Origin: a virus
DNA length: 30,350 bases
Direction: 5' to 3' (one strand)
IMG/VR virus record: IMGVR_UViG_3300025889_000622
Span: 1-30,350 of that record
Shown: in pieces, positions 111-30,350 of the stretch
How positions within the stretch are numbered: position 1 is the stretch's first letter
Layout of the letters: every line of letters begins with the position of its first letter
Notes under the pieces: model-generated
Databases searched by the model: none
The model's input: only the letters and a program-made list of their open reading frames with translations
What the model was told of the DNA's origin: nothing
Position numbers and translations under genes: made by a program

Positions 111-2210
111 ATGCCATCAATATCATACGATCAAACTAGCCAAACGCATTCGCATCAACAGGCAAAGTTGTGGGCAGCCGATGCGTCTAAAGAATGTCCG
201 TCACCGCTGACGGGTGAACTGCTCGCCGTTCGGCAAAACCTCGACGCAGATTTGGGGTTTTTCCTCTGGACGTTGTTTCCCGAGGCTTTTCCGCTGGAAC
301 CATCCCCCTCACATCTGCGGATGATATCGGAGATCCAGAAGTCGGTTGATCACGGTGGGTTGAAAGCAATCGCGGCTCCGCGAGGATCGGGCAAAACGTC
401 GATCATGCTTCGGGCGGCATTGTGGGCGATGCTTTCCGGCCGCCGTCGGTACGTCTGTTTGGTCGCGGCCGATGCCGATTCCGCGATCAGCAACTTGGCA
501 ACGGTTAAAGCCGAAATCAACCATAACGAGCGGATTGCTAAGTATTACAGGCGAGAGACTTGGTGCGTACGTCAGCTGGGTGGCGAACCTCGCCGCGCGG
601 CGACTCAGCACTACGAAGGTCGGCAGACTGGCGTCGAATACAGTCGAAACGGATTGTGCCTGGGGACCATCCCCGATTGTCCGATCAGCGGTGCCCGCAT
701 CTCTACTGCGGGCATTACCGGCCGGATTCGGGGCCAGCAGGCGTTGACTCTGGATGGCGAAATCTTGCGACCGGACTTCGTTCTCGTCGATGATCCAAGC
801 ACTAAGCTATCTGCCGCCAGTACCAGTCAAAATAAAAAACGACATGAAACCATGATGGGCGACATTCTCGGGCTCGCCGGGCCGGGAGTGAAAATTGCGG
901 GTTTCTGCACCTGCACAGTGATCTACCAGGATGACCTTGCCGATCGAATCCTCGACCGAAAGCTATCGGCGGACTGGAATGGCGACCGAATTGCCATGGT
1001 CAAAAGCTGGCCCACTTGGATGGATGGTTGGGATCAGTACAACCAAATGCGAGTCGATGAACTCTTGCAAGAGCGAGATCATGAGGGATCGCGGCAATTT
1101 GTTCGCGATAACTTCGATCGCTTGCATGAAGGTGCGGAGGTCTATTGGGAGGCTCGCAAAAGCGAACATGATGTTTCCGCGTTGCAGCATGCAATGGATC
1201 TGTATTTTCGGGATACCGGAGTCTTCGCCGCCGAATATCAAAACGCACCGTTAGACCAAGTCGCTACCAGTCCCTACGACATCCAAACCGAAGCGATCAT
1301 GCGACGAATCACGGGGATCCCCCGAGGTGCCGTACCTGAAGACGTAGACAAGATCACCGCGTTTATCGATACCCAACGGGAGTTGCTGTATTACGTCGTC
1401 GTCGCATGGTCGATTACTGGTCGAGGGTACGTTATCGATTACGGTGCCTGCCCCGATCAAAAGCGTCATCATTGGGCGAAACACTCGGTTCCATACACGC
1501 TATCGCAGATTTACGGTGATGATTTCGAAACCTATTTGCGATCGGGACTTGACTGGTTGATCGGTGCGATTCTTGAAAACGAATACACTACCGAAAACGG
1601 TGCGAAGGTCATGGTTGACCGATTAGCAATCGATGCTCGGTGGGGGGAGTCAACCGCGATCATCCGAAAGTTAGCCAGGGAATCCCGGCACCGCGCTCGT
1701 CTGCACCCGTCCATGGGTATGTTCGTCGGGGCCAACAGTAAACCGTGGCAACAACTCAAGAGTTCTAAAGAGCGACGAAGCGATCGGCGCGGAGTTCATG
1801 CCAAACTGGTTACGCCTAAAGACGGCGGCCGTCGCGAGTTGCTTTACGATTCAAATTACTGGAAGTCATTCTGTGCTGATCGATTGCTTTGCCATGAGGG
1901 TTCGCCTAAAGCAATTATGCTGTTTGACGCGGAGCCCCACAAACATCGAATGTTTGCCGAACATTGTGCGGTCGAGGAACCAGTGCGGGTGCTAGGCAAA
2001 GCTAATAACGAAGTGGTTGAATGGCGAACGTCAAGTTCCCAGGTTGAAAACGATTTTTGGGATTGTCTGGTCGGCAATGCTGCCCTGGCATCGACCATCG
2101 GTGTCGAAACTCATTCAGGTAACCGAAAAGGTGGTCAGGGCATGAGTCGCGCGATTGAGAGCGTACTCAAACGAAAACCGTCAACCCAGTTTTTCCAAAC
2201 GCGAGGATAA
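111..2210 (+). CDS. terL: phage terminase large subunit
   Basis: This is the ATPase-nuclease motor that packages DNA into the prohead and cuts it. The N-terminal half has a Walker A loop APRGSGKTS at residues 89-97 and a Walker B strand FVLVDDP near 223-229. The C-terminal half looks like the RNase H-like nuclease, with likely acidic metal ligands in AFIDTQ (about 419), LAIDARWG (about 540) and ENDFWD (about 675). The length of 699 residues suits the larger terminase families. No small-subunit gene is visible, so it may lie to the left of the window. There is no good Shine-Dalgarno sequence before the ATG at 111. The next gene begins six bases after the stop. Confidence 0.93.
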   Translation: MPSISYDQTSQTHSHQQAKLWAADASKECPSPLTGELLAVRQNLDADLGFFLWTLFPEAFPLEPSPSHLRMISEIQKSVDHGGLKAIAAPRGSGKTSIMLRAALWAMLSGRRRYVCLVAADADSAISNLATVKAEINHNERIAKYYRRETWCVRQLGGEPRRAATQHYEGRQTGVEYSRNGLCLGTIPDCPISGARISTAGITGRIRGQQALTLDGEILRPDFVLVDDPSTKLSAASTSQNKKRHETMMGDILGLAGPGVKIAGFCTCTVIYQDDLADRILDRKLSADWNGDRIAMVKSWPTWMDGWDQYNQMRVDELLQERDHEGSRQFVRDNFDRLHEGAEVYWEARKSEHDVSALQHAMDLYFRDTGVFAAEYQNAPLDQVATSPYDIQTEAIMRRITGIPRGAVPEDVDKITAFIDTQRELLYYVVVAWSITGRGYVIDYGACPDQKRHHWAKHSVPYTLSQIYGDDFETYLRSGLDWLIGAILENEYTTENGAKVMVDRLAIDARWGESTAIIRKLARESRHRARLHPSMGMFVGANSKPWQQLKSSKERRSDRRGVHAKLVTPKDGGRRELLYDSNYWKSFCADRLLCHEGSPKAIMLFDAEPHKHRMFAEHCAVEEPVRVLGKANNEVVEWRTSSSQVENDFWDCLVGNAALASTIGVETHSGNRKGGQGMSRAIESVLKRKPSTQFFQTRG

Positions 2211-2216
2211 TATCCG

Positions 2217-2501
2217 ATGATCTGCGAAAAGTGCGGATGCCATGACCGAGTGATGAGAACAGTTCGCCGACAAGATCGGGTCGTTCGCATACGTCGTTGC
2301 ATTACTTGCGGTCACATGGTGACTACCGAGGAAACCAAGATCGAAAACCCAACGACAACCAAACCCGCACCCAAGCGGGTTCCCGAACCGACTCCAGTCA
2401 AGTCTGCCAAACCGCGTAAGCGCAAACAAAAAGCCGAACCACCTAAAAAAGATGATTCGGCCAAAGGTGCGTTAGCTCAAGCAATGGCCCAAGCAAGGTA
2501 A
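2217..2501 (+). CDS. small zinc-ribbon protein, NrdR-type finger
   Basis: The protein has 94 residues. Its first 35 or so form a zinc ribbon with C3-x2-C6 and C28-x2-C31, and the basic stretch and RRCITCGH context resemble the N-terminal finger of NrdR regulators. The ATP-cone that completes real NrdR is absent. It is replaced by a Lys/Pro/Thr-rich, probably disordered tail. The finger suggests nucleic-acid binding, either in packaging beside terL or as a late regulator; the role is inference. GAGGA near the end of terL serves as ribosome binding site. Its stop directly abuts the stop of the opposing gene, leaving no room for a terminator. Confidence 0.75.
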   Translation: MICEKCGCHDRVMRTVRRQDRVVRIRRCITCGHMVTTEETKIENPTTTKPAPKRVPEPTPVKSAKPRKRKQKAEPPKKDDSAKGALAQAMAQAR

Positions 2502-2825
2502 TCACCGCTTTTTTGGTTTGCCTTCGAGAGTGAGAGGCACTGGGGCGCACATCCGATTCCCGTTAGCGTTTCGGATCACGCCTGAAGACCAAGGTGCCTT
2601 CGTCTTTCCCGACTCTACTCCACGCAGATATGCGCGGAGTTTTTTCGAGATCGGAATCTTCGCTGGTTTCTTACGGTCAATTGCCCCGTCGCAATCGGGG
2701 CAAAGCAGCGTATCGGACAATGCGTGAATCGCGTAACCCGATTTGCATCGCAATCGATCGGTGAATTTATCCGCTTCGAATTCAACGCAGCACCAATCGC
2801 AAAAGTGCTTTCCGTCAACTTTCAT
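2502..2825 (-). CDS. small cysteine-rich putative zinc-binding protein
   Basis: This 107-residue protein has cysteines at 9, 12, 13, 27, 42 and 45 in a pattern (FCDWCC, RLRC, LLCPDC) that suggests one zinc-binding module. A basic region (KKPAKIPISKKLRAYLRG) follows. I do not recognise the family. It is the last of four reverse-strand genes joined by overlaps: its ATG at 2825 shares ATGA with the stop of the 35-residue membrane protein. It ends exactly against the stop of the forward zinc-ribbon gene. Binding of nucleic acid is likely but unproven. Confidence 0.7.
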   Translation of the reverse strand: MKVDGKHFCDWCCVEFEADKFTDRLRCKSGYAIHALSDTLLCPDCDGAIDRKKPAKIPISKKLRAYLRGVESGKTKAPWSSGVIRNANGNRMCAPVPLTLEGKPKKR

Positions 2826-2929
2826 TGTTTATCTTTCAATTCAGGAGCGTAAACACAACTGGCGATGAACGTGATCAACGTCAGTACCCAACAAACGACC
2901 AAACCAAACACTACCCACCAAGCATCCAT
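2822..2929 (-). CDS. 35-residue single-pass membrane protein
   Basis: A very short gene read as MDAWWVVFGLVVCWVLTLIT and then a short tail ending ELKDKQ. Residues 4-27 form one uninterrupted hydrophobic segment with a charged C-terminal tail, as expected for a single transmembrane helix. Support comes from exact coupling on both sides: its ATG shares an A with the TAA stop of the 47-residue gene (TAATG), and its TGA overlaps the ATG of the 107-residue gene (ATGA). Function is unknown; a small membrane effector, for example in superinfection exclusion or lysis control, would fit. Such short genes can be chance, but the double overlap argues against that. Confidence 0.62.
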   Translation of the reverse strand: MDAWWVVFGLVVCWVLTLITFIASCVYAPELKDKQ

Positions 2930-3072
2930 TATTTACGTCCTCCGTTCACGTCTTTTTTCGCTTGTTCTCTACGCTTCTTTTTGCTGATCTTTTTCAGCAC
3001 CGCAGTGCGATCGTAGCGGTTCTTTCCGCTGTTCGATCCGCCCATTCCTTTTTTGATTTTCGGGTAGCTCAT
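2929..3072 (-). CDS. 47-residue lysine-rich basic protein
   Basis: The product begins MSYPKIKKGMGGSNSGKNRY and continues with a run of lysines and arginines (KKISKKKRREQAKK), so it is strongly positively charged and probably binds nucleic acid or a membrane surface. It has no cysteines and no known motif I can name. Its ATG at 3072 overlaps the TGA of the upstream 107-residue gene as ATGA, and its TAA shares a base with the next ATG. This chain of overlaps is the main evidence that it is translated. Confidence 0.62.
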   Translation of the reverse strand: MSYPKIKKGMGGSNSGKNRYDRTAVLKKISKKKRREQAKKDVNGGRK

Positions 3073-3392
3073 ATTGCAATCTTCCGCAATCGAGAACTGA
3101 GATTAAATCCGGTGACCATTCTACCGTCGGCATCATAGATATTTCCGCAGCAGTCGAGCGATTGCTCGGGATAGACGGCATGACAACTGCCGACTGAATA
3201 AGAGTTGCCGCCAACATGCACCTGCATGTTTCGGCCAATGCGACCGATACCGTACTTCTGAGCGCGGCCGCAAGATGAATAGAGTTTGATGTCGCCCACA
3301 TCGGCGAGTTTTTTGTACCAGCGGCCGTCAGTGCCGAGAATAGCGTCGTCCAAAGATCGCCGCACAAACCATTTTGCTTTTTGGTTGGTCAT
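3069..3392 (-). CDS. conserved-looking protein of unknown function, first gene of the reverse operon
   Basis: The product has 107 residues from the ATG at 3392; an in-frame TTG directly before it is less likely. GGAG at 3400-3403 is spaced seven bases from this ATG. The sequence is rich in aromatic and polar residues, with SLDDAILGTDGRWYKKL near the start and YPEQSLDCCGNIYDADGR later, and has four or five cysteines. It looks like a small folded beta-rich domain. I do not recognise it. The structured RNA at 3428-3872 lies directly upstream on the same strand, so this gene may be read from the same promoter with that RNA as its leader. Confidence 0.65.
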   Translation of the reverse strand: MTNQKAKWFVRRSLDDAILGTDGRWYKKLADVGDIKLYSSCGRAQKYGIGRIGRNMQVHVGGNSYSVGSCHAVYPEQSLDCCGNIYDADGRMVTGFNLSSRLRKIAI

Positions 3393-3427
3393 CAAAAATC
3401 TCCGTTGAGGTTGAAAGTGGATGAAAG

Positions 3428-3872
3428 GGTGAGACTCACTGACGTGTTGAGATTGTTTGTTAACCTGTCATCCCGATGCCCTCTCAACACTTGCTGTTTA
3501 CCGCAGCTAGCGTAAGCATCGGGCAGGTCACAGTGAGCCTCACCTTTCCATCGATCTGCTACCACTACACTCTCTCCCCGAAGGGTTGTAGGCGTTGGTA
3601 GTCTTGCTGCCGGGCAGCTCTGACGCCTCGTTATTCAGTCGCTGCTGCGACCTACGGTGTATGCTAGGGATGCTTGGATTCGAACCAAGAACTTCACAGT
3701 TGGATCCGGCCTGACCCGTGCCGTGAGAGATCAAGCTCACGCACCTTCAACCATTCGCGACTGGCGTCTGGTGTAGGATCGCAGGTGATCAAACTTGCTT
3801 GCCGGACTGCGATGTGATGCCAATTTCACCACATCCCCGTATTGGATTGTTTCAGTTAAGTCTCCTTAACTA
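3428..3872 (-). ncRNA. large structured RNA with tRNA-like, UUCG and pseudoknot domains
   Basis: No convincing protein gene lies here, but the reverse strand holds many long complementary segments. At the 5' end is a hairpin, AGTTAAG-GAGA-CTTAACT (3854-3871). Next is the tRNA-like domain 3665-3838. The middle has stem 3559-3569 with 3587-3601 capped by a cUUCGg loop (3576-3585), plus hairpins 3606-3618 and 3638-3651. The 3' domain pairs 3428-3441 with 3531-3544, 3463-3467 with 3524-3528, 3472-3479 with 3516-3523, and, crossing these, 3444-3452 with 3482-3490 (nine perfect pairs). GNRA and UUCG loops and G-U pairs appear only when the reverse strand is read. It could be a stand-alone ornate phage RNA, loosely like GOLLD or ROOL, or a long leader of the operon at 2502-3392. 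The ends are estimates. Confidence 0.62.
3665..3838 (-). ncRNA. tRNA-like domain with about 100 extra nucleotides
   Basis: Read on the reverse strand, GGGGATG (3838-3832) pairs with CATCCCT (3672-3666) as a seven-pair acceptor stem ending in discriminator A at 3665. A D-arm with GTG and CAC around a loop containing TTGG follows (3829-3814). The T-arm CTTGG-TTCGAAT-CCAAG (3689-3673) matches the tRNA consensus exactly and joins the acceptor directly. A GTGA-capped mini-stem (3701-3690) sits where a type II variable arm would be. An ordinary anticodon arm cannot be drawn: TCGCAG pairs with CTGCGA (3812-3807/3784-3779), while the adjacent TCCGGC pairs with distant GCCGGA (3806-3801/3710-3705), which forms a pseudoknot. 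CCA is not encoded. It may be a tRNA mimic or an interrupted tRNA gene. Confidence 0.6.
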
Positions 3873-3878
3873 CAGACC

Positions 3879-3907
3879 AGTTTATGACATGCAAAACTTG
3901 CCGTCAA
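3879..3907 (-). promoter_or_regulatory. sigma70-type promoter for the structured RNA
   Basis: On the reverse strand TTGACG (3907-3902) is a near-perfect -35 box. After exactly 17 bases comes TAAACT (3884-3879), a four-of-six match to the -10 consensus. Transcription would start near 3872, just before the GAGA-capped hairpin and the tRNA-like domain. Position, spacing and orientation all fit. Confidence 0.55.
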
Positions 3908-3937
3908 CCGCCGATAAAAGCTATTTCGGCACTTTTT

Positions 3938-3971
3938 TTGACAAAAACCAGCAAATATGCGCAGATATGCG
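3938..3971 (+). promoter_or_regulatory. possible divergent promoter/operator with direct repeats
   Basis: A perfect -35 hexamer TTGACA at 3938-3943 faces the late genes, but a good -10 box at 17 bases is missing; AGATAT at 3963-3968 is 19 bases away. Two copies of ATATGCG start at 3955 and 3965, ten bases apart or one DNA turn, as operators often are. The site lies between two divergent transcription units. Confidence 0.3.
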
Positions 3972-4013
3972 TTTTCGGTTTGCAAACGTAGCTAATTTTG
4001 GTACTGAAAAGGT

Positions 4014-4241
4014 ATGGCAGACTTAACAAATCAATCGATTGCGGACGCATTACTGGCGATTGGCCCCAGAACGGTCGAGGGGGACCAGGGACGGGTGAGC
4101 ATGCACTCGGTGCATGATGTCATCGCCGCGATGGAATATGACCGCAAACGAAACCGCATGAAGGACCGAGCTTCGGTTCGTCATGCCCTTCTCACTATCT
4201 CGAACCATAGATTGGCAACTCACGATGGTCGAGCTTCGTAA
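4014..4241 (+). CDS. gpW-like head-tail joining protein
   Basis: The 75-residue product lies between the terminase and portal genes, the position of gene W in lambda, and has the right size (lambda gpW has 68 residues). The middle reads GRVSMHSVHDVIAAMEYDRK, which resembles the short beta hairpin followed by a helix in gpW-like joiners. gpW-type proteins plug the portal after packaging and let the connector bind. Assignment rests on position, size and this local similarity. The stop lies within the start of the portal gene. The ribosome binding site (AAAAGG) is weak and close to the ATG. Confidence 0.6.
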   Translation: MADLTNQSIADALLAIGPRTVEGDQGRVSMHSVHDVIAAMEYDRKRNRMKDRASVRHALLTISNHRLATHDGRAS

Positions 4242-5871
4242 ACGGATTCAGGCATTCCTGAATCCGCCCCCGCAACCGCAACCACCTCGCAACGTATCGC
4301 CCGAGCGCATGGATGACGTAGCGTTATCTATGCGGTCGATCTTGCGAGGTAGTTACGATTCGGTTTCGCGTACCCCCGAGAATGCTAGACATTGGGCATG
4401 GGCCGATAACCTTTCGGCAGATGCTTCGCTGGTTCCCGAAGTTCGTATCCGGTTGCGAAGTCAATCAAGATACGAGTTGATAGAGAACAACTCGTACGGA
4501 CGAGGCATGGTCGATACGGTCGTCACCGATACGGTCGGCACGGGTCCGCGATTGCAGATGCAACAATTTCGGTTTTCAACAAATCAAGAAATTGAAAAAG
4601 CATGGTATCGGTGGTCATTGGCTGTTGGCCTTTGCGAGAAACTGCAAACCATTCGATCAGCTAAACTGGTAGATGGTGAAGTGGTAATCCGCTTCGTCAA
4701 CAACCTGACCGTCGAGGACGCGGTTCAACTTGACATTCAACTCATTGAGTGCGATCAGTTACGCTCACCGCAATTCGAATTGCAGATCAGTGAAAACTAT
4801 GTTGATGGGGTTCACTTAGACCGCTTCGGCAACCCCTATGCATACGACATCCTGCAACATCATCCCGGTGCTAACTATTGGAATTCGGTAGACCTGTATG
4901 CGCATGACACATACGGTTATGACCAAATCATCCATGCGTTTACTCCGACTCGTCCAGGGCAGCACAGAGGTGTTGCTGAGTTTGCACCGGCGTTGCCACT
5001 CTTCGCGTTTTTGCGACGGTTTACCCTGGCAACTGTTTCCGCCGCAGAAACGGCAGCGTCGGTGTCTCAGGTAATTGAAACCGATGCTCCGCTGCCCGAA
5101 GAGTTGGAAGAGCAGTACGCAGCAACTTCTTTCGACAAGTATCTCGATACGATTCCGGTTGATCGCAACAGTGCAACCGTACTTCCAAACATGTGGAAGT
5201 TACGGCAGTTTTCCGCCGAGCATCCGACGACTACTTACAAGATGTTCAAACGGGAGTTGATCAGCGAGATCGGTCGTACGTTGTGCATACCTTGCAACAT
5301 CGCTACCGGCGACAGTGGCGAATCTAATTATTCGTCTGCTCGATTTGATTGGCTCGGGTATGAGAGAAAAATCAAAACCGAACAGAGCTATCTTTCGCAT
5401 CGCGTTCTAGATCGAATCTTTGCGGAGTGGCTAGTAGAAGCGTCATTGACCGGCTCGATTCCAAAAAGCGCGGCGAATGTGGTCCTGGCCGATTTCGATC
5501 GGTACGGCAAACGCGGGATGGCAAACCGCGTGGAGCATTCTTGGTACTGGGATGGAATGCGGGATGCAGATGCAAAAGATGCGGCCAATGCTCAAAAAGT
5601 TCGATTGCAAAACGGATCTACGCAGCGGGCTCGCGAGTACGCATTGCAGGGACTCGACATCGAAGTTGAAGATGCAAAAGCCGCAGCTGGTTTCGGCGTG
5701 ACGCTTGAGGAATACCGTCAGGCAGTTATGGCGAGCGTATTCACCAACGGTAACATGTTGGCTCCCGGCACAACCGCAGAAGAATCAGAAGAACCTACAG
5801 AGGATGGCGAATATGGCATCGACGAGAACGAAGAAAATGAAACAGAAACCGAAACAGCGACCAGCGAGTGA
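4225..5871 (+). CDS. phage portal protein, lambda gpB family
   Basis: The portal is the twelve-fold ring at the capsid vertex through which DNA enters and leaves, and it docks the terminase. At 548 residues the protein is close to lambda gpB. Typical features are the early RHWAWADNLSADASL segment, the NNSYGRGMVDTVVTDTVGTG stretch near residues 85-105, and the later PCNIATGDSGESNYSSARFD segment near 370, all characteristic of lambda-type portals. The acidic C-terminal tail (EENETETETATSE) is usual. I prefer the ATG at 4225; an in-frame ATG at 4183 would add 14 residues but overlaps the joiner gene more. Neither has a clear Shine-Dalgarno sequence. The end overlaps the protease-capsid gene by 59 bases. 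Confidence 0.9.
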   Translation: MVELRKRIQAFLNPPPQPQPPRNVSPERMDDVALSMRSILRGSYDSVSRTPENARHWAWADNLSADASLVPEVRIRLRSQSRYELIENNSYGRGMVDTVVTDTVGTGPRLQMQQFRFSTNQEIEKAWYRWSLAVGLCEKLQTIRSAKLVDGEVVIRFVNNLTVEDAVQLDIQLIECDQLRSPQFELQISENYVDGVHLDRFGNPYAYDILQHHPGANYWNSVDLYAHDTYGYDQIIHAFTPTRPGQHRGVAEFAPALPLFAFLRRFTLATVSAAETAASVSQVIETDAPLPEELEEQYAATSFDKYLDTIPVDRNSATVLPNMWKLRQFSAEHPTTTYKMFKRELISEIGRTLCIPCNIATGDSGESNYSSARFDWLGYERKIKTEQSYLSHRVLDRIFAEWLVEASLTGSIPKSAANVVLADFDRYGKRGMANRVEHSWYWDGMRDADAKDAANAQKVRLQNGSTQRAREYALQGLDIEVEDAKAAAGFGVTLEEYRQAVMASVFTNGNMLAPGTTAEESEEPTEDGEYGIDENEENETETETATSE

Positions 5872-8011
5872 TTTGATCTTCGCTGCTTCGGAAGTGACCA
5901 TCGAGGCAGCGGGAGAGAATTCGCCCGAAGTAAACGTGACCGCGTATACCGGCGGCACGTTGTCCCTACCTAACTACCCGAACCCGGTGGTGATCAACCT
6001 TTCGGGTGTTCGGGCAATGAGTGACGAACAAATTCCGTTTCTCCGCGATCACCAACAGCAAAGAGTGGTTGGTCATGGGCAACCGGAAGTCGGCGAGAAG
6101 CAGTTAACCCACAGGGGCAAACTGTCGATCGCTGGCGAAGAACGCGATAACATTATCGCGGCGAGCAAAGAGGGTTTCCTCTGGCAGGCGTCTGTCGGAG
6201 GTCGCGTACCTGATGTTCGCAAAAACGTGCAAACGATCGCCGCTGGTGATCGAGTGCGGGTCAACGGAAAGTCTTTCGCTGGCCCAATTCATGTCGTTAA
6301 TGCTTTCCTCTGGAAAGAAACTAGTTTTGTCGCAGTCGGTGCGGATGAAGGCAGAGCGTCTGCCTCGATCGCTGCGGCGCAATCATCGGGAGTTTCCCCC
6401 ATGACCAAATTCGAAAAGTGGCTTGAAGATTCGGGGATCAACTCCGACGATTTGTCCGTAGACCAAAAGAAGAGTCTGGAAGCGGCGTACAACGCGCTGC
6501 CTTCCGAGGCACCGGAGCCTGCTCCTGCGAGTTCCGCCGTCGATATGGACTCCGTTGTCGCGTCCGCCACTAAAGCGGCCGTTGAAGCGGCCCAGCAGCA
6601 ATCGCAGCGTGATCGTCGTATCGATCGCCTGTTCGCAAACTACTCGGACGCTTCGGTGTCGAAAGAGTCGATCGATTCGCTTCGCGCTCAACTGGAAGGC
6701 GGCGAAATCAGCGAAGAAAAAGCTCATCTCGAATTGCTGTTGGCAAGTCGCGGACGTGGAAGTACCAGCAATGTTCATTCGGGGAGTCGAAGCGTGGGCG
6801 ATAATTTCGGGTTGGAACTTGAGGCTGCCGTTTGTCGCAACGGCGGTTTGAGCGATGAGCAGATTCACGGCAACCTCGTTGAAGCGGGTGCCTCTGCTGA
6901 TCAAGCCGAGTCGGCAGTCGAGCGATCTCGCAAAAACAGCAAAGGCCTGAAAAGCGTGATCATGGCGATTTGCCGCCAGGAAGGTCATCACGCCGATGAG
7001 GTCGATGACGACGCGATTCGTTGTGCCATGCGAGCCTCTGAGCGTGACAACGGGATGATCCAAGCGTCTTCGGGATTCAGCACGGTGGTTCTGCCGGGCA
7101 TTTTGAGTCGCTTGGCGAACAAAGCAATGCTCGCCGCGTACGCGGAAGCAGACAATGGTGGCGTTGCGACTCAAATCGCATCGACCACTTCGACTCGGGA
7201 CTTCAAAAAGTTCAATCGGTATCGAATGACTGAGAGCGGTGTTCTCTCTGAAGTTTCGGCAGCGGGCGAACTGCAACACGGTTCCCTGGTCGAAGAGGAG
7301 TACGAGAACCAAGTCAAGACGTACGGCAAAATCATGTCGCTGACGCGGCAGATGATGCGAAACGACGACTTGGATGCGTTCCTCCAAATCCCCCGTATGA
7401 TCGGCCGCATGGGGCGTCATGCGTTGGAGCAGTCGGTCATCACCACCTTGGTGGATGCTTCGACCAGTGCCGGTGCGGGAACCACTGAGTTCTTCCACGG
7501 TGCCGCTCGGGGTAACCAAGAGCCCAACTACTTGGAAGGTGCGGCCACTGCTTTGGGTTTCGACGCTTTGGAACCTGCCTATGAGTTGTTCCTGAATCAG
7601 GTCGATGCTGACGGCAAGCCCTTGATGATCGATCCAGGTCTGTTGCTCTGCACCAACGCGGACATCATCGCGGCTCGCAAACTGTACTCCGATACTCAGT
7701 ATCGGTTCACCGCAGCGGATCGTACGGAAACGATCAACAACCAGTGGGAAGGTATGTTTGAGCCTGTTAAGTCGAGCTACCTGCATCGACTTGGGGCATC
7801 GCCAAGTTCCACGCAGTGGTATCTGTTGGCTCGTCCATCAACCGACGTTAGTGCGATTCAGATCGCGTTCCTCGACGGTCAGCAAACCCCGACGATCAAT
7901 TCGTCGGAGACTCAGTTCAATACGCTCGGCATGCAGATGCGAGGCGTGTTTGACTTCGGTGTCGCATTGCAAGATCCGCGAGCGATCGTCAAGTGCAAAG
8001 GCGCAGCGTAA
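5813..8011 (+). CDS. prohead protease fused to HK97-fold major capsid protein
   Basis: One gene of 732 residues combines two virion functions. Residues about 20-190 are a prohead maturation protease: the likely catalytic histidine is in LRDHQQQRVVGHG (H80 or H88) and the likely nucleophile is S127 in WQASVGGRV. A helical, Ala/Gln/Glu-rich region about 197-310 probably acts as the scaffold or delta domain. From about 325 to the end is the major capsid protein, with FSTVVLPGILSRLANK and a C-terminal FDFGVALQDPRAIVKCKGAA. The start at 5813 has AGAGG nine bases upstream; the frame is open further up inside the portal gene. Cleavage between the domains is expected from the family. A separate scaffold gene is not seen. 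Confidence 0.88.
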   Translation: MASTRTKKMKQKPKQRPASDLIFAASEVTIEAAGENSPEVNVTAYTGGTLSLPNYPNPVVINLSGVRAMSDEQIPFLRDHQQQRVVGHGQPEVGEKQLTHRGKLSIAGEERDNIIAASKEGFLWQASVGGRVPDVRKNVQTIAAGDRVRVNGKSFAGPIHVVNAFLWKETSFVAVGADEGRASASIAAAQSSGVSPMTKFEKWLEDSGINSDDLSVDQKKSLEAAYNALPSEAPEPAPASSAVDMDSVVASATKAAVEAAQQQSQRDRRIDRLFANYSDASVSKESIDSLRAQLEGGEISEEKAHLELLLASRGRGSTSNVHSGSRSVGDNFGLELEAAVCRNGGLSDEQIHGNLVEAGASADQAESAVERSRKNSKGLKSVIMAICRQEGHHADEVDDDAIRCAMRASERDNGMIQASSGFSTVVLPGILSRLANKAMLAAYAEADNGGVATQIASTTSTRDFKKFNRYRMTESGVLSEVSAAGELQHGSLVEEEYENQVKTYGKIMSLTRQMMRNDDLDAFLQIPRMIGRMGRHALEQSVITTLVDASTSAGAGTTEFFHGAARGNQEPNYLEGAATALGFDALEPAYELFLNQVDADGKPLMIDPGLLLCTNADIIAARKLYSDTQYRFTAADRTETINNQWEGMFEPVKSSYLHRLGASPSSTQWYLLARPSTDVSAIQIAFLDGQQTPTINSSETQFNTLGMQMRGVFDFGVALQDPRAIVKCKGAA

Positions 8012-8440: not shown

Positions 8441-8842
8441 ATGACGAACTACCTCAGTATGGGAGCAGAGAAACTCCAACAGTTGATGGAAAATTATGGT
8501 GGCGTTAACGTCACCTACCGTCGAACTGGAGTGTTCTCGTTTACCGTCGCCGCAGTGCCCGGTCGTAATCCGACCGACGTATATGATCAGCGAGGTGTTC
8601 TCTTACGAGGTCAGATCCAAGACTTCACAATCGCAATAGCGAAGTTAACTGCCGGAATGACTTCCGGCTCGGCCCGACCGCTGCGTGGCGACGAAATTGT
8701 CATGCAGGTCGGGGAGTATAGTACCGTCTTCGTCGTTAACGGCGAAGACTTTTCGACAGGGCATTATCAGCCCTCTGATTCTTACGGGATCGCTTGGCGG
8801 ATCCATACAAAATCGGATCGAATAGATGCCTCGGGATGCTGA
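8441..8842 (+). CDS. putative head-tail connector/stopper protein
   Basis: This 133-residue protein is placed where lambda has FII and HK97 its head-closure proteins. The sequence is beta-rich, with VNVTYRRTG near the start, a GRNPTDVYDQRG loop, and a later RGDEIVMQVGEYSTVF. It resembles small connector proteins that close the portal after packaging and receive the tail. I recognise the type mostly from position and size. It overlaps the next gene by 17 bases. Confidence 0.55.
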   Translation: MTNYLSMGAEKLQQLMENYGGVNVTYRRTGVFSFTVAAVPGRNPTDVYDQRGVLLRGQIQDFTIAIAKLTAGMTSGSARPLRGDEIVMQVGEYSTVFVVNGEDFSTGHYQPSDSYGIAWRIHTKSDRIDASGC

Positions 8843-29873: not shown

Positions 29874-30350
29874 CCGATTAAACCGCCAGAAACCTCGGCA
29901 TTGCCAGAAACCTCGGCATCGCCAAAGACCTGGGCATTGCCATAGACCTTGGCCTTGTCAGAGACCTTGGCATTGGCAAAGACCTCGGCATCGCCAAAGA
30001 CCTGGGCATTGCCATAGACCTTGGCCTTGTCAGAGACCTCGGCATCGCCCGAGACCTCGGCATTGCCATAGACCTTGGCATCGCCAAAGACCTTGGCATC
30101 GTGAAAGACCAGGGCATTACCATAGACCTGGGCATTGCCATTGACCCAGGAGTCGCCAGAGACCTTGGCATTGCCACAGACATTGGCATCGCCATAGACC
30201 AAGGCATTGCCAAAGACCCAGGCATCGCCAGAGACCTTGGCATTGCCATAGACCAGGGCATTGCCATAGACCTGGGCATTGCCATAGACCAGGGCATTGC
30301 CATAGACCCAGGCATCGCCAGAGACATTGGCATTGCCATAGACCCAGGCA
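29870..30350 (-). CDS. hexapeptide-repeat beta-helix protein, partial at right edge
   Basis: The frame is open to the window edge on the reverse strand, so the N-terminus is missing; 159 residues are visible. They are made of about 26 hexapeptides of the form A-x-V-x-G-[ND], for example AKVYGNAEVSGDAEVSDKAK. Such repeats build a left-handed beta-helix as in acyltransferases, but the His and other catalytic features of those enzymes are not seen. Similar V-x-G-[DN]-A proteins occur in phages, probably as structural or binding proteins. The stop overlaps the polymerase ATG as ATGA. A TTG at 30202 is not a likely start because the repeat continues upstream. Confidence 0.72.
   Translation of the reverse strand, partial: AWVYGNANVSGDAWVYGNALVYGNAQVYGNALVYGNAKVSGDAWVFGNALVYGDANVCGNAKVSGDSWVNGNAQVYGNALVFHDAKVFGDAKVYGNAEVSGDAEVSDKAKVYGNAQVFGDAEVFANAKVSDKAKVYGNAQVFGDAEVSGNAEVSGGLIG
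29880..30350 (-). repeat. 18-bp tandem repeat array
   Basis: About 26 units of 18 bases, consensus GGCATTGCCATAGACCTT on the forward strand, run to the window edge. The codons GCC, GTC and GGC are almost invariant; the variable codons nearly always end in G or T. This repeat also opens other reading frames on the same strand, which are by-products. Confidence 0.88.

Follow-up and report, generated by a model that had tools for sequence, protein, structure and literature searches.

The window, the whole 30,350-base stretch of DNA analysed here, is an IMG/VR virus record from an uncultivated phage in which the large terminase (terL), the portal and a fused protease/major head protein were assigned with PHROGs (Table 1). 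Between terL and portal, on the strand opposite to the packaging genes, lies a cassette that reads, in reverse-strand order, as a promoter-like site, a candidate structured RNA, three small genes and a terminator-like hairpin. The end of the RNA is ∼25 nt from the ribosome site of the first small gene, with no terminator in between, and searches of the small genes next to the RNA against phages gave no matches. Both the RNA segment and the three-gene cassette are absent from the four nearest relatives (L006, L015, L016 and L017; terL 56–59% and portal 51–57% identical). Because the terL–portal spacing is only ∼500–590 nt in these relatives compared with 1976 nt in the window, the cassette is an addition in the window's phage. 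The bacterial genomes that contain relatives of its terL belong for the most part to Planctomycetes, Lentisphaerae and related lineages, so a host from this type of group is likely. In three other relatives (L034, L039 and L059), small genes with integron attC-like flanks (GTTRRRY / RYYYAAC type ends) occur on the reverse strand downstream of terL. At the far end of the window, a reverse-strand frame (29878–30339) is built of a repeated motif like MAMPRSLAMPRSM and may reflect a repeat-rich contig end.

Table 1. Genes, sequence signals and predicted RNA elements in the window.
Feature	Position	Strand	Basis and remarks
Large terminase (terL)	111–2210		PHROGs
Portal	4183–5871		PHROGs
Fused protease/major head protein	5705–8011		PHROGs
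Promoter-like site, TTGACG-17-TAAACT	3879–3907	−	Consensus scan; points into RNA
5′ hairpin, AGUUAAG-GAGA-CUUAACU	3854–3871	−	Fold
Acceptor-like 5′ strand, GGGGATG (G1 to 7)	3832–3838	−	Sequence, stem scan, blastn to phage tRNA-Leu 5′ ends, model R2
Positions 8–9 (T8) and D-arm, GTG-AAATTGGCAT-CAC	3814–3831	−	Sequence, blastn, model R2
Anticodon-like stem, ATCGCA/TGCGAT, in register	3778–3813	−	Sequence
Enlarged variable region, ∼90 nt, further possible hairpins	3690–3777	−	Sequence, folds; z not significant
T-arm, CTTGG-TTCGAAT-CCAAG (G53 at 3685)	3673–3689	−	Stem scan, model R2
Acceptor-like 3′ strand, CATCCCT, and A73; U72 opposite G1	3665–3672	−	Stem scan, model R2
Domain 2 (middle), candidate helices	3547–3660	−	Drawn from sequence
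Domain 2, possible pseudoknot, AGGCGT/ACGCCT	3628–3623/3595–3590	−	Drawn from sequence
Domain 2, candidate stem CTACCA/TGGTAG and cUUCGg hairpin	3601–3596/3564–3559	−	Drawn from sequence
Domain 3	3417–3551	−	Fold z-score; helix shuffle test
Domain 3, predicted outer stem with 14-bp core	3551–3531/3441–3417	−	
Domain 3, predicted inner stem	3528–3516/3479–3463	−	
Domain 3, predicted pseudoknot helix, A-rich linker	3490–3482/3452–3444	−	
Small gene, start ATG 3392, ribosome site GGAG 3403–3400	3069–3392	−	ORF list, codon usage
Small basic protein, 46–47 aa	2932–3072	−	Codon usage; without matches
Small protein with two CxxC pairs	2502–2825	−	ORF list; faint HNH-endonuclease similarity, E = 0.019
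Terminator-like hairpin, 13 pairs and T-rich tail	2432–2462	−	

The initial annotation had proposed that positions 3428–3872 hold many complementary helices and no convincing protein gene. The helices are present where it had placed them, including an exact 14-bp stem (3428–3441/3531–3544) whose one G–U pair becomes A–C on the opposite strand, and the G1–U72 acceptor pair, the GAGA loop (3864–3861) and the cUUCGg loop are all found on the reverse strand. There is no protein frame: an ORF at 3540–3740 on the reverse strand has a codon usage score below that of the phage's genes, and the two overlapping ORFs have no PHROGs match. A promoter with 17-base spacing, also claimed to point into the RNA, exists as a sequence with nine of 12 consensus matches, but sites of this quality are about as many as chance predicts. 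By folding energy, the reverse strand of the whole stretch (z = −3.75, with none of 100 shuffles as good) does better than the forward strand (z = −2.60), and the best score among 604 windows of 200 nt on both strands (z = −5.8) falls at 3401–3600 on the reverse strand. The second-best fold score of the window (z = −5.78; 8601–8800, forward strand) lies within and slightly past the gene at 8441–8842. Folding thus supports the prediction that the stretch encodes a structured reverse-strand RNA of ∼445–450 nt.

The strongest structure of the window is domain 3, for which the strand asymmetry put forward earlier was supported (z = −7.46 on the reverse strand vs −3.92 on the forward strand); the tRNA-like and middle domains fold equally well by energy on the forward strand. 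The four longest helices of 3423–3556 total 30 pairs, vs a mean of 17 and a maximum of 29 in 2000 shuffles. In the fold, a long stem encloses an H-type pseudoknot whose linker is rich in A. A covariance model of the domain (R1), run against 89 sources, matched only the window, more weakly also on the opposite strand, and L120, whose match at E = 2 was taken as chance and rejected as a homologue; nothing convincing was found in 14 further records or in 294 genomes of the planctomycete phylum. For domain 2 we can draw possible helices from the sequence, with a fold score that is not significant (z = −0.8) and equally good on the forward strand.

The 5′ domain (3838–3665, reverse strand) has the upper half of a tRNA: a 7-bp acceptor stem with G1–U72, a D-arm, a T-arm and A73, after which CCA is not encoded. 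It differs from a canonical tRNA in its lower half. From position 1 to G53 it measures 153 nt, compared with a normal 52–67, because the anticodon loop and the variable region are enlarged. The loop (3807–3784), which includes TTTGAT, has 24 nt rather than 7, and with the ∼90-nt variable region this means that the element cannot decode normally. Of the features expected of a canonical tRNA, the acceptor, the D-arm and a T-arm with consensus T-loop are present, and normal length, a 7-nt anticodon loop and recognition by a tRNA finder are lacking; ARAGORN called no tRNA in the stretch, and the Rfam tRNA model (RF00005), whose cut-off is 29 bits, gave the element only 14.6. Its folding energy is not unusual (z = −1.3, with the forward strand doing equally well), so the assignment draws on sequence and covariance-model matches. 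A stem scan for paired acceptor and T-arm found no equal of this element in the reversed control. In blastn comparisons with phages, the 5′ part matched tRNA-Leu 5′ ends and the T-arm part matched a tRNA-Trp and unannotated sequences, the whole stretch yielding only such tRNA fragments and unannotated 27-nt matches; there was no match to plasmids. The D-arm 21-mer TGTGGTGAAATTGGCATCACA is identical in two phage tRNAs of normal length that we read as tRNA-Gln, and a scan with a D-arm 17-mer returned coding sequences and ordinary tRNAs, with no homologue. We conclude that the 5′ domain is a tRNA-derived element with its upper half intact, perhaps descended from a tRNA-Gln. The fold drawn earlier showed the acceptor pair without recognising this tRNA origin. 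The T-arm/acceptor pattern is absent from the 294 genomes of the planctomycete phylum, and an attachment site in a host tRNA was rejected on this ground.

Compared with phage tRNAs (RF00005; Leu and Gln types), the element shares the 7-bp acceptor, a D-arm with GG, the TTCGAAT T-arm, A73 and the common D-arm 21-mer, but is ∼100 nt longer, with its 24-nt loop, very large variable region, G1–U72 pair and no CCA. Natural tRNAs that depart from the cloverleaf, among them tRNA-Sec, allo-tRNAs and tRNA-Pyl, are known partly from metagenomes (PMC7609411); these are mostly translational, with altered stem lengths or a long variable arm, whereas the window's element has ∼100 additional nt and decoding looks impossible. 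Copies of the RNA occur in three other contigs, and in L011, for which the full comparison was made, the sequence does not differ from that of the window over 369–3911. All copies found are near-identical, and the searches gave no diverged homologue.

Comparable elements are found in other phages. The acceptor and T-arm scan of terL-relative loci revealed abnormally built tRNA-like elements in L025, L038, L058, L062 and L075, with no or one match when the same scan was run on reversed sequence; further matches in L032, L042, L046 and L121 look like chance. Scanning viral contigs for widely spaced D-arms and T-arms gave at least 120 loci. Among the loci listed, 37 of 159 T-arms unexplained by ARAGORN come with a D-arm as well as a complete acceptor partner 75–250 nt upstream, vs an average of 2.05 and a maximum of 6 with permuted acceptors, a proportion that is no estimate of frequency because the loci were picked by the pattern itself. 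By a separate, looser acceptor and T-arm criterion applied to all the loci listed, CCA is encoded in 56 of 103 normal-length elements and in one of 36 long elements. The Rfam tRNA model accepts several oversized elements over 106–158 nt and matches little of their anticodon arm. A group of 22 matches, one of which spans two elements, is spread over eight contigs and has a common upper half and unrelated middles. Judged by these matches, many uncultivated phages carry oversized tRNA-like RNAs. The window's element is like them in keeping the upper half intact, in the enlargement of the lower half or variable region and in the lack of an encoded CCA.

One family of such RNAs covaries strongly. 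A scan from one conserved insert found at least 120 viral DNA stretches, and those listed comprise 81 distinct sequences, 78 of them full length and 38 remaining after thinning at 90% identity. Among the 38 aligned sequences, 27 of 38 pairs vary on both sides and pairing holds in 98.0% of cells, and shuffled and slid controls gave far lower pairing and covariation scores. Members (for example, L379:1338–1510 on the reverse strand and L167:2645–2817 on the forward strand, with others within L288–L403 and beyond) are ∼145–180 nt long and encode no CCA. They have an acceptor with a G after it, a D-arm, an anticodon loop with GUC and a structured variable domain of ∼80 nt that contains GGGGTWGACCACCAGCTTGCAAGC. 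No Rfam model gave a covering match in L167 or L209, and blastn of the family core against 50,697 phage records gave no match. The family shows that structural selection can act on oversized tRNA-like RNAs in phages.

A covariance model (R2) built from this family alone, that is, from the RNAs of other phages, gave a single match in the window, end to end on the reverse strand at 3838–3662 (E = 0.0038, 21.2 bits). Among 52 terL-relative loci it matched only L058, L062 and L025, all earlier finds of the stem scan. Since R2 also scores ordinary tRNAs, the match supports a tRNA-like upper half and not family membership; the score of 21.2 bits, from the upper half only, compares with 116–180 bits for true members. 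Neither the family's conserved inner domain (GGGGTWGACCAC.AGCT..CA) nor its GUC anticodon loop is present in the window's RNA.

What might such an RNA do? The tRNA-like anatomy, the structure and strand preference of domain 3, the arrangement of the cassette and the similar RNAs elsewhere are observations, and from them we think it rather probable that the window encodes an expanded, non-decoding tRNA-derived RNA, processed by the host into a decoy or scaffold and fused to a pseudoknotted leader of the three small genes, with more confidence in the anatomy than in the decoy or scaffold step. Once transcribed, the RNA would be cut by host RNase P and the tRNA 3′-end enzymes to release a stable tRNA-like RNA, whose most likely action would be to engage host tRNA-binding proteins as a decoy or scaffold, its enlarged part perhaps carrying the specific activity. 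The remaining transcript, with the pseudoknotted domain 3, would stay attached to the three small accessory genes as their 5′ leader.

A partly compatible but, in our judgement, unlikely reading is that the whole RNA, chiefly the domain-3 pseudoknot, is a cis-acting regulatory 5′ UTR and that the tRNA-like part is only a processing or sensing site. The short, terminator-free distance to the first gene and the strength of domain 3 fit such a leader; it leaves the retention of a whole tRNA-like upper half unexplained. Another reading is that a tRNA pseudogene in decay, into which sequence was inserted by chance, has as its neighbour an inverted-repeat DNA element unrelated to it. In its favour, phage tRNA genes are gained and lost, and the inserted part lacks a significant fold; each arm of the 14-bp stem is itself near-palindromic (GTGAG-N-CTCAC), as paired operators could be. 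We regard this as improbable, given that the acceptor, D-arm and T-arm are intact and only the lower half differs, that similar elements recur in many phages with one family covarying, and that one strand of domain 3 clearly folds better than the other. Less probable still is a Gln-like tRNA gene from which one or more introns are removed to yield a normal tRNA: the anticodon stem TCGCA/TGCGA is in register and the loop has TTTGAT, as in a phage tRNA-Gln loop, but two excisions (loop and variable region) would be needed, there is no group I intron match, and other oversized elements have unrelated middles with no common splice signature.

The possibility that the RNA is a member or close relative of GOLLD, ROOL or tmRNA must also be weighed. 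GOLLD and ROOL, which are structured, pseudoknotted RNAs of large size, are found in phages and often lie close to tRNAs or tRNA islands (PMC12286853), and like them the window's RNA has a phage location and pseudoknots; like tmRNA (RF00023), it has a tRNA-like domain with a large insert and pseudoknots elsewhere in the RNA. In one contig (L228), a tmRNA and a GOLLD RNA are accompanied by oversized tRNA-like RNAs (3921–4312 on the forward strand; 7086–6680 and 10825–10710 on the reverse strand). Searching the stretch with Rfam covariance models, a check named in the initial annotation, gave no match at gathering level and, for GOLLD (RF02032), ROOL, tmRNA and the group I intron core, none even at E ≤ 10, and the GOLLD model did detect the GOLLD RNA of L228. 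ARAGORN called no tmRNA, and reading the insert revealed no usual tag frame. The window's RNA is shorter than GOLLD and ROOL and of another architecture; unlike in tmRNA, its tRNA halves do not enclose the pseudoknots, which lie 3′ of the tRNA-like domain, and it has a D-stem. On this evidence of model, length and architecture we rejected GOLLD, ROOL, tmRNA and canonical tRNA as identities and give even a close relationship with the large RNAs very little probability. The 'new ornate phage RNA' of the initial annotation therefore survives as a structured reverse-strand RNA and not in the GOLLD/ROOL sense, there being no Rfam match at gathering level and a shorter length.

In addition to the expanded tRNA-derived RNA with a leader that we favour for the window, we tentatively suggest, with somewhat less than even confidence, that tRNA-scaffolded noncoding RNAs form a broad class in phages, for the most part unannotated, in which the upper half would be kept for maturation by the host's enzymes and diverse functional domains would replace the lower half, the window's RNA being a single-copy member with a pseudoknotted leader. 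Oversized tRNA-like RNAs escape annotation because tRNA finders expect normal lengths. We found no description of such a class in the open-access literature, which does not prove novelty. If processed and stable, these RNAs would be a reservoir of phage noncoding RNAs that may engage the host tRNA machinery or defences based on tRNAs. Direct tests are possible with the covarying family, and the window adds an example that is present in single copy and joined to a strong pseudoknot.

Other arrangements were seen among the contigs. In L176, L178, L194, L206, L221, L225, L238 and L264, tRNA-like elements with the upper half AGTCAGG...CCTGACTA are repeated several times per contig with wholly different middles, and some adjoin the hairpin GCTCG-GAAAGA-CGAGC; L176 is a distant relative of the Lak megaphages. 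Very short or odd tRNA-like elements occur in L025 (194–146, reverse strand), L044 (∼5208, reverse strand), L079, L080 and L085, either with little sequence separating the acceptor from the T-arm or with an additional spacer ahead of the D-arm; some directly follow the stop codon of a gene.
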